Origin: a virus
Virus record (IMG/VR): IMGVR_UViG_3300035193_000026
Location: 1 to 58,434 of that record
Length of the DNA stretch: 58,434 bases
Strand: one strand, 5' to 3'
Shown here: positions 8,908 through 42,215 of the stretch, in pieces
Numbering within the stretch: position 1 is the stretch's first letter
How the letters are laid out: every line of letters starts with the position of its first letter
Notes under the pieces: generated by a model
Databases searched by the model: none
Told to the model about the DNA's origin: nothing
Seen by the model: only the letters and a program-made list of their open reading frames with translations
Program-made: the position numbers and the translations under genes

Positions 8908-8950
8908 TAACAAGGGGGCGTAATGCCCCTATATAATAAAGGAGAAAAAT

Positions 8951-9459: not shown

Positions 9460-10263
9460 ATGGCATTATATAACGAAATTGCGAGACGTGACATTTTAAT
9501 GATGTGTTTTGACCTTCTTAAACAGGGGGTTTTAAAACAAAGAGACGTTGACGGAAAGCTGGAATTTAATAATCCTGCTCCGGCATGGGATGTACCTTGG
9601 CATTTTACTGTACAAAAAGCTGATTTAAACTGTCAGCTTTGGAGTAAAGTAATGTTCAATGTTGTTTTTAAAAAGGTTCCTGTATCTATGCAAAATGGAA
9701 CGGTATGGGTTCCCTCCGGATGTCAGAATTGTTTTAAAATAGTAGCAAGGCCAAAGACAATAAAGCAGTTATTCGCCATTGTTAAGCTACAGAAAAGGCT
9801 CGATATCGCGTCTAAGTGTGGAATTGAACATAGAGCGCATGTTTTCGGAAATTACGGAGCATACTGGTATAATAGAGGACTTGAAGAGGGATTAAAGAAT
9901 TATAAAGTAGTAAGACAGGCGATAGACGAAGATCCTTTGCTCGGTCCTGATATCAAGGTAATATTAAAACGCTCATGTACTGAAATGGAAATGACAGCCG
10001 GACCATCTGACAAGTGGGCTATATCAAAAGAGCAGATGGAAATCGAAGCACTTGTATATTCAACGTTCAATATTGATAATGTTGAACGTAAGCAGTCACG
10101 TCAAGCAGTTGATTATGTACATGCCCGATGGATAGAATATGCCTATCAGTGGGGTGATGAAACAGTATTTGAATTTCTTGATCCTGAAAAACCGATTTAT
10201 AAACCATTGGTGACATATCATCATCAAATAGAAAAACCTGAAAAGGAGAACAATAATGAATAA
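9460..10263 (+). CDS. Hypothetical head-module protein, 267 aa
   Basis: No family recognised. It is more helical and charged than its neighbours, with several cysteines (NCQLW, SGCQNCF, SKCGI) and many aromatic residues, including a Tyr/Trp-rich stretch near GNYGAYWYNRGLEEGL. It overlaps the next gene by 8 nt, so the two are probably coupled. Position between capsid and connector genes suggests a structural or assembly role. Confidence 0.6.
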   Translation: MALYNEIARRDILMMCFDLLKQGVLKQRDVDGKLEFNNPAPAWDVPWHFTVQKADLNCQLWSKVMFNVVFKKVPVSMQNGTVWVPSGCQNCFKIVARPKTIKQLFAIVKLQKRLDIASKCGIEHRAHVFGNYGAYWYNRGLEEGLKNYKVVRQAIDEDPLLGPDIKVILKRSCTEMEMTAGPSDKWAISKEQMEIEALVYSTFNIDNVERKQSRQAVDYVHARWIEYAYQWGDETVFEFLDPEKPIYKPLVTYHHQIEKPEKENNNE

Positions 10264-10804
10264 TGTAAAATGTACAGAAAAGGGAGGATGGCAAATATTC
10301 TCCGGTGCGCCTCAAATGATAAGTGCTGGTGGTATATTGACTGGGGCTAATCAGCAAGTCGCAAATAGTGCTACTGAAACAGCCGTGGTGACTGAGACTG
10401 TGTATGGCTATACCCTTAATACTGTTGGTCAGACATTCCGGGTCACACTTGTAGGAGAGATATCTTCCAGTGGATCAGGTGATATAACTCTAACCCTCAG
10501 GTATGGAACTACTGATATCCTTGCAGTGGTCACAACCGCACTTGCAAATGAGGATGATAAGCCATTCAAACTTGAATATTTTGGAAGAGTTTTGACAGCC
10601 GGAGCAACCGGAAAAGTATTATGCACTGGACTTGGTTATTTTTTCCAGGGAACGCCTCTTACTTTTATGACTGATACGGCTAATACAGGGGCAACAGTTG
10701 ATTTAACAGCAGATGGCAGTCTAAATGTCACAGCACATTGGGATAACGCGAGTGCAGATGACGATATAATTGTGACTGCTGCTGCTATAGAGTTTTTCGA
10801 TTAA
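10256..10804 (+). CDS. Probable structural (decoration-like) beta protein, 182 aa
   Basis: Starts inside the end of the previous gene with AAGGAG eight nt upstream. The protein is Thr/Gly/Ala-rich with regular beta spacing and resembles phage decoration or carbohydrate-facing proteins in composition (ITLTLRYGTTDI, then LTADGSLNVTAHW). Its position before the structured RNA at 10821 suggests it ends one translational unit of the head module. Confidence 0.6.
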   Translation: MNNVKCTEKGGWQIFSGAPQMISAGGILTGANQQVANSATETAVVTETVYGYTLNTVGQTFRVTLVGEISSSGSGDITLTLRYGTTDILAVVTTALANEDDKPFKLEYFGRVLTAGATGKVLCTGLGYFFQGTPLTFMTDTANTGATVDLTADGSLNVTAHWDNASADDDIIVTAAAIEFFD

Positions 10805-10820
10805 TAATCGATAAATGCTC

Positions 10821-10881
10821 ACTCGGACAAACGGCTACCTCCCCGTTAAAGGCGCGACTCTCCCGGCGCGCCTGTCCGAGT
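10821..10881 (+). ncRNA. Candidate three-way-junction RNA element
   Basis: A GC-rich island between two late genes folds without mismatch into three stems. P1 is ACTCGGACA (10821-10829) with TGTCCGAGT (10873-10881). P2 is AACGG/CCGTT (10830-10834, 10843-10847). P3 is GGCGCG/CGCGCC (10851-10856, 10867-10872). Stems abut with only AAA joining P2 and P3. Loops CTACCTCC and ACTCTCCCGG are complementary to purine-rich ribosome sites; GGGAGA occurs twice downstream (10892-10897, 10902-10907). There is no adjacent U-run, so it does not look like a terminator. Confidence 0.6.
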
Positions 10882-10911
10882 TCCACTTTTCGGGAGAAAA
10901 CGGGAGATGTT

Positions 10912-11235
10912 ATGAAATTGTTTATTGCTGAAAGGGTAGCTTTATTAAATATACTACCAAAAGAAGGAAGTTTTTTAACTTATAAAGCCGTACAAGGTTT
11001 AAAGGATCAGCTATCGGCATCTGATGAAGAGACGTCAGAGCTTGGAATAAAAACTGATGAAGCTGGTCACATGTTTTGGAATAGTACCCTTGATAAGGGG
11101 AAAGAAATTGAAATATCCGAAACAGCAAATAACATTATCATTGAAGGACTTAGGAAATTTAATCCTGAAGATGAAAACATACCTTTCATATATTGGGATC
11201 TTAAAGAAAAATTTATCCCTGGAGATGGTGAGTAA
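10912..11235 (+). CDS. Hypothetical protein, 107 aa
   Basis: Starts with GGGAGA upstream, just after the structured RNA element. The protein is helical and acidic, with no cysteine or membrane segment. It ends immediately before the connector gene (TAA then ATG), which suggests a head-completion or assembly partner. No family recognised. Confidence 0.65.
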   Translation: MKLFIAERVALLNILPKEGSFLTYKAVQGLKDQLSASDEETSELGIKTDEAGHMFWNSTLDKGKEIEISETANNIIIEGLRKFNPEDENIPFIYWDLKEKFIPGDGE

Positions 11236-29186: not shown

Positions 29187-29286
29187 GAATCTGAAACCAG
29201 GTAACCTGGCAAGTAGGATTCACCCGCCCGACAGGGGCTTAAAAAACAGGTGGGGTGAAATTCCCCACCACCTCTTAGCAGGAGGT
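29187..29286 (+). promoter_or_regulatory. Structured leader that can hide the ribosome site of the next gene
   Basis: Four hairpins follow one another: GAATC/GATTC enclosing CCAGG/CCTGG (29187-29221), GCCC/GGGC (29226-29238), GGTGGGG/CCCCACC (29249-29255, 29263-29269) and ACCTC/GAGGT (29270-29274, 29282-29286). The last hairpin covers GGAGGT of the gene starting at 29291. The third and fourth stems are adjacent and could stack. No U-run follows, so a terminator is unlikely. Confidence 0.5.
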
Positions 29287-41537: not shown

Positions 41538-41861
41538 TTAAAGATCAAGGTCACCTTTGGCCATTAAAAATGCCTCTTTAACTGCATCGATAATACGATT
41601 TAAACATTTTCTGTCAGCAACCTTTATTCTTGGGGGTGCAATATTATCAATAAGATAATCATTATCAACATCCAAAAAAAATTGATGGATTTTTCTATCT
41701 CCCATCGCGTTCCAATATGCGCCCCAAAATTGGCCGTAACATTCAATTATTACTCTACCTTTGCCATCTGCAATATCCTCAAGGTATACATTGATAAGGC
41801 CTAAAGCTGGAGCATCCTTTATTTTAAGTTGTTTTATTTTATAAGATGTTGTTATTTCCAT
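41538..41861 (-). CDS. Conserved phage protein, 107 aa
   Basis: ATG 41861 has GAGG upstream; the longer form would start within a hairpin at 41879. ITTSYKIKQLKIKDAPALG, then RVIIECYGQFWGAYWNAMGD, is a pattern shared by small proteins from several phages; activity unknown. Confidence 0.7.
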   Translation of the reverse strand: MEITTSYKIKQLKIKDAPALGLINVYLEDIADGKGRVIIECYGQFWGAYWNAMGDRKIHQFFLDVDNDYLIDNIAPPRIKVADRKCLNRIIDAVKEAFLMAKGDLDL

Positions 41862-41878
41862 TTTATCCTCTTTAATTG

Positions 41879-41904
41879 GCCGGGAGTCATAATAACCTCC
41901 CGGC
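41879..41904. promoter_or_regulatory. GC-rich hairpin in the leader of 41538-41861
   Basis: GCCGGGAG (41879-41886) and CTCCCGGC (41897-41904) form a perfect 8-bp stem with a ten-nt loop in otherwise AT-rich DNA. There is no U-run on either side. Its GGGAG could be a hidden ribosome site for a longer N-terminus. From 41907 to 42065 there is no gene that I can support, only further short GC-rich inverted repeats. Confidence 0.4.
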
Positions 41905-42065
41905 ATTTAGCAGGGCCTAAGCCCGCGCCCTCGGTCGAAACCAGAGGGGGAATTGCCCCTTTGTGCCTACATTATCTCCTACGCACTAAGCGTAAGGCTT
42001 CAGCACTCAGGGGCTTTTACTGGCAGCTTGTATCTTTACAAAAAGGAAGCCTGCCAGCAAATTTA

Positions 42066-42215
42066 CTACCTATGCTTCCACGCAAGTCCCTTTTTATTCC
42101 GGTACTTGCTTGCTTGTCTTGATGTGGGCCTTATTTCGATACCACATTTCTTCTTTACCCCATAACAAGCTCTTCTAAATTCTTCGTTTTTTTCTGAAAA
42201 CTCTTTATTTGTCAT
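42066..42215 (-). CDS. Small basic phage protein, 49 aa
   Basis: AGGAGGT lies 13 nt before the ATG. NEEFRRACYGVKKKCGIEIR and PTSRQASKYRNKKGLAWK resemble a common phage mini-protein pattern (motif S-R-Q-A-S-K-Y-R-N-K-G-L-A). Function unknown. Confidence 0.55.
   Translation of the reverse strand: MTNKEFSEKNEEFRRACYGVKKKCGIEIRPTSRQASKYRNKKGLAWKHR

Follow-up and report, generated by a model that had tools for sequence, protein, structure and literature searches.

We describe a covarying family of predicted three-way-junction (3WJ) RNAs in phages, which is previously uncatalogued and absent from Rfam 15, and of which an element from an uncultivated phage is probably a divergent member or else a convergent copy. 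The junction, the family, the covariation of its stems, and the specificity of one loop for a site just downstream and, in most members, for the Shine-Dalgarno sequence (SD) of the next gene, emerge directly from the computation. With moderate confidence, we interpret the element as a cis-acting leader RNA that would lower or insulate initiation of the next gene, through pairing of the loop of stem P3 (L3) with the SD in competition with pairing of L3 with the nearer downstream site.

The window, by which we mean the whole 58,434-nt stretch of DNA analysed, includes a head region comprising genes for the portal (5448), a ClpP-type protease (6601) and an HK97-type major capsid protein (7549), followed by three ORFs without families, by g7 (10912), and by the genes of a head-tail adaptor (11236) and of a head-completion protein (12608). 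The last of these three ORFs, g6 (10256-10804, plus strand; 182 aa), has no match in PHROG or Pfam; g7 (10912-11235, plus strand; 107 aa) belongs to no named family and has homologues in other phages. The element is intergenic: it sits in the 107 nt that separate g6 from g7, its first stem 16 nt past the TAA stop codon of g6. A late virion gene thus precedes it, and the SD of the gene that comes next follows.

Folding of the sequence yields a mismatch-free 3WJ at 10821-10881 in which all pairs are standard. Stem P1 (9 bp) joins ACTCGGACA (10821-10829) to TGTCCGAGT (10873-10881); the P2 hairpin, AACGG-CTACCTCC-CCGTT (10830-10847), carries its loop at 10835-10842; and the P3 hairpin, GGCGCG-ACTCTCCCGG-CGCGCC (10851-10872, loop at 10857-10866), adjoins P1 without a linker, as in the family. 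All of these lie on the plus strand, and P3 and the 5' strand of P1 were also recovered by descriptor scan. A preliminary description had singled out a compact, mismatch-free junction of three stems, conspicuous in its GC content, and our figures agree: the three stems are perfect, GC content is 66% in the element vs. 37% in the window, and the minimum free energy of 10821-10907 is -36.3 kcal/mol (dinucleotide-shuffle z = -2.65; 2 of 200 shuffles equally good), and the element ranks among the most stable 62-nt stretches on both strands of the window.

That description also proposed that both loops pair with GGGAGA copies downstream, including the ribosome site of the next gene, and the case for this is strong for L3, the ribosome site included, but weak for the P2 loop. 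The L3 segment TCTCCCG (10859-10865, plus strand) matches two CGGGAGA copies perfectly, with a duplex energy of -11.3 kcal/mol, whereas the P2 loop forms about 5 bp with the downstream sites at best (-5.2 kcal/mol). Site 1 (10891-10897, plus strand) begins 9 nt past P1, within the 4-10 nt seen in the family, and is the predicted pseudoknot partner of L3; site 2 (10901-10907, plus strand) is the SD of g7 and the alternative partner. In nested folding, sites 1 and 2 are partly paired elsewhere, g7 coding sequence included. A mini-ORF, ATG TTA TGA (10906-10914), lies about 9 nt past site 1 and overlaps the start ATG of g7. A descriptor combining a 3WJ with a loop complementary to two downstream sites recovers the element; in 300 shuffled windows it made 20 looser matches, none with as many stem pairs.

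Neither blastn of the element nor distant blastn of the surrounding region returned a homologue, and matches to a palindrome pattern (CTCGGACA...TGTCCGAG) were all chance or coding. Relatives were reached by way of capsid protein homologues, and from these to g7 homologues, the leaders of which were inspected. Loci L186-L188 and L192 present the same architecture before g7 in a sequence different from that of the window. In L186 the loop is CCTCACCTC, with CGAGGTGAGAAAACGAGGTGG downstream before the ATG, as compared with the window loop given above and its downstream sequence CGGGAGAAAACGGGAGA; the loop and both downstream copies are altered together. Two patterns derived from L186 and L192 were scanned over viral contigs and the candidates folded, leaving ten distinct members (L186, L192, L232, L233, L236, L240, L245, L254, L262, and L272), several of which occur in two to four contigs each. 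Many pattern matches with folds unlike the family were dropped (e.g., L234, L235, L244, L249, L253, L255-L259, L261, L263-L268, L270, L271, and L273), and L038, a weak match to covariance model R1, lacks P1. Models R1 and R2 were both built from the family without the window. Rfam 15 returned no match for the window element or for the regions of the seven members searched (all but L254, L262, and L272). R1, run without a positive control, gave no match in 301 genomes of the phylum Chloroflexota, to which belongs a Dehalococcoidia MAG with a g7 homologue.

Two further structured regions of the window are recorded here. A DUF3800-VIII RNA (RF03075) at 41952-42017 on the minus strand scores 41.3 bits, above gathering, and lies within a strongly structured stretch at about 41850-42080. 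Two adjacent strong hairpins, GGTGGGGTGAAATTCCCCACC and ACCTCTTAGCAGGAGGT, occupy 29225-29286, and the second spans GGAGG.

The preliminary description had named a covariance search across related phages as the means of checking the structure, and the outcome was positive for the architecture. In alignment A6 standard pairs fill 96.3% of pair cells, double-change cells number 46 vs. 14.3 in shuffles, and the covariation score is 0.738 vs. 0.237 in shuffled alignments; when partners were slid by one to three columns as a control, all values were far lower and the signal was gone. Strong compensatory changes occur in all three stems of the family. As GGGATA, GATAARG, and CTTTCCC were fixed by the search patterns they cannot be counted as conservation, and the covariation is located in the columns that the patterns left free.

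The loops are likewise specific for their own sites. The P3 loop of each member shows complementarity, over four to eight pairs, to a segment beginning 4-10 nt past P1, so that a pseudoknot between the loop and the 3' tail is predicted to be common to the family; the weakest site 1 pairing is that of L192 (CCAG/CUGG), the best loop match of which is the SD. When each loop was scored against the downstream sequence of all members, none of 20,000 permutations matched loops to site 1 as well as the true arrangement, with or without the window. The same test on the SD region gave p = 0.0003 (a one-base error in the start index used for L262 and L272 did not materially move the SD region), while a control stretch past the start codon, in the five members with enough sequence, gave p = 0.74. 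Complementarity between SD and loop is clear in the window, L186, L192, L232, L236, L240, L245, and L254; since it is weak in L262 and missing from L233 and L272, the loops of which match site 1, SD pairing is not universal. Site 2 of L240 is a poor SD, and in L186 a GTG inside site 2 is in frame with g7.

The contexts in which members occur bear on what the structure might do. In L186, L192, and L232, as in the window, the element precedes g7 homologues. In L245 and L254 it lies between the major tail protein and tail-assembly chaperone (phrog_313) genes; elsewhere it is flanked by a head protease gene and an HNH-like gene (L233), by a portal protein gene and a NUMOD4 gene (L240), by an ORF without assignment and an endonuclease-VII type gene (L272), or by a tail sheath gene and an ORF with weak domain matches (L262). 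The downstream endonuclease genes resemble homing endonucleases. Placement before such unrelated genes (g7 homologues, tail-assembly chaperones, NUMOD4/HNH, and endonuclease-VII) is how a gene-independent control of expression would sit. The earlier suggestion that the element sets the ratio of head proteins fits these contexts to the extent that a structural gene is followed by a different downstream gene; a role in packaging is unsupported, as members are also found before tail chaperone and endonuclease genes. In relatives of the window phage without g7, no unusual structure precedes the adaptor gene, and the element therefore goes with the downstream gene.

Elsewhere, g7 homologues follow either the same RNA family, a candidate H-type pseudoknot (in many cases), a plain hairpin, or, in some cases, no structure. 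In the H-type candidates, assigned by eye and with a simple script, a 5' GGC.. pairs with ..GCC in a hairpin loop, with the variants AGGC/GCCU, GGGC/GCCC, CGGC/GCCG, and AGCC/GGCT. This candidate class (L170, L174-L177, L181, L183/L184, L185, L189, L196, L197, L226, and L229) combines a GGC..GCC S1, the pairs of which appear to covary, with a GC-rich S2 and an A-rich last loop. Such alternative folds before g7 support the view that this junction has a functional requirement which more than one fold can satisfy. L222 and L225 carry a long, near-perfect palindrome about 30-70 nt before g7; it overlaps a consensus promoter (TTGACA/TTGACT-17-TATAAT) and is followed by TTTTT.

On the reading we prefer, the element would act as a cis-acting leader embedded in late phage mRNA, its three stems displaying the P3 loop. 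Pairing of L3 with site 1 would close the 3WJ pseudoknot, leaving the SD free while a compact fold stayed in place where the ribosome footprint begins upstream; alternatively, L3 would pair with the near-identical g7 SD and block 30S binding. The net effect would be to lower g7 initiation, or insulate it, relative to the upstream head genes. We infer the folding in the cell, the competition between two states and the lowering of translation from sequence. Structures that sequester ribosome-binding sites are established in T4, for late genes as well as for homing endonucleases (PMC2988022), and in seg43(25) a hairpin abuts the ribosome-binding site (PMC3014915). Like the leaders of T4 soc, e, I-TevI, and segB, and of Aeh1 mobE, the family has structure ahead of SDs that belong to late or homing-endonuclease genes, and several members precede endonuclease genes of that sort; in those leaders, however, a plain hairpin stem holds the SD, whereas here the loop of a separate 3WJ and a decoy-like second site would be involved. 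The T4 gene 32 leader pseudoknot, and with it the rpsO pseudoknot operator, resembles the family in having a pseudoknot before the ribosome-binding site and a translational role, which for the family is proposed here. The gene 32 pseudoknot is H-type and bound by its own product, whereas the family is a 3WJ that precedes unrelated genes, which makes product-specific feedback unlikely.

A different function, the main rival to this reading and the one of widest consequence, is suggested by the exoribonuclease-resistant RNAs (xrRNAs) of flaviviruses, in which a 3WJ is reported to have its L3 paired just 3' of P1; one such RNA blocks bacterial RNase J1 in vitro (PMC5760640). The phage family shares this core topology in a viral RNA, as judged by complementarity and permutation; site 1 pairing is its most general feature, and gene-independent placement is compatible with such a role. 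If the junction and the pairing of L3 with the 3' tail mechanically blocked a 5'-3' exonuclease such as RNase J, then the downstream part of a processed late mRNA would be stabilised. We nonetheless consider this rather unlikely, as there is no Rfam match of any kind; the 5' flanks of members, inspected by eye, show no conserved stretch able to pair with the junction and so complete a ring; and complementarity between loop and SD is left unexplained. The phage element further differs in that it lies within a polycistronic mRNA made by a DNA phage, immediately ahead of an SD that the loop often matches. Our literature search found no report of a phage xrRNA. That tailed phages carry their own ring-like, exonuclease-blocking pseudoknotted RNA in late polycistronic mRNAs, its loop doubling as an SD switch, is a reading that we regard as improbable.

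Nor do we favour, at a similarly low likelihood, an intercistronic structure of the REP type, which would protect the mRNA of a highly expressed upstream gene from 3'-5' decay or insulate terminating ribosomes, its loop complementarity being secondary. P1 begins about 16-17 nt past the stop codon in the window as well as in L236 and L254, a second stable hairpin, AGGGGGCGTAATGCCCCT, lies directly past the major capsid protein stop codon (8913-8930), and plain hairpins or candidate H-type pseudoknots occupy the same place in other phages. However, the spacing is longer in L232, L233, L240, and L262, the specificity of loops for their sites would go unexplained, and the lack of structure at this junction in relatives without g7 ties the element to the downstream gene. 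Protection of mRNA ends by the element, as the preliminary description suggested, is possible.

Kinship between the window element and the family was considered separately. R1 and R2 align the window across all 19 pairs, exactly at 10821-10881, but the scores are low: 10.3 bits for R1, at rank 4 and E = 2.5 over the 58 kb, and 8.3 bits for R2, at E = 0.037 over a 301-nt stretch, where members reach 54-67 bits. The junction bases of the family, GGGAUAG..GAUAARG..CUUUCCC (partly imposed by the search patterns), are GGACAAACGG..CCGUUAAAGG.. in the window. Architecture, pseudoknot, and position agree with the family, whereas the junction bases differ and the scores are weak; we regard the element as a probable divergent member, although convergence is conceivable. 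These disparities, and the absence of a blastn homologue, might be taken to indicate a chance or convergent structure with no kinship to the family, yet we think this quite improbable: only about 0.04 architectures combining 3WJ, pseudoknot, SD, and start codon are expected per window by chance, as estimated from shuffled sequence, and the element lies exactly before a g7 homologue, as do L186, L192, and L232. A descriptor that ignores sequence and requires a 3WJ with P3 on P1, a pseudoknot of the loop, an SD, and a start recovers four of the ten members as well as the window, with one further match bearing an SD and start, probably by chance, in 2.35 Mb. Finally, a leaky transcription terminator or attenuator is very improbable, for although ACTTTT follows hairpins in some relatives and TTTTTT follows P1 in L262, most members lack a U-tract directly past P1 and no terminator was called at 10821-10881 when terminators were scanned for.

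The recurrence of a compact, covarying fold in divergent phages, before chaperone, endonuclease, and head-region genes, raises the question of whether phages share with RNA viruses the use of pseudoknotted junctions as mechanical blocks. If the ring-like reading were true, then the family would be a DNA-phage counterpart of the flaviviral xrRNA, protecting or separating mRNA segments from RNase J-type decay. As a leader that may limit the gene it precedes, the family offers a testable account of how phages obtain very different output from adjacent cistrons on a single late mRNA.
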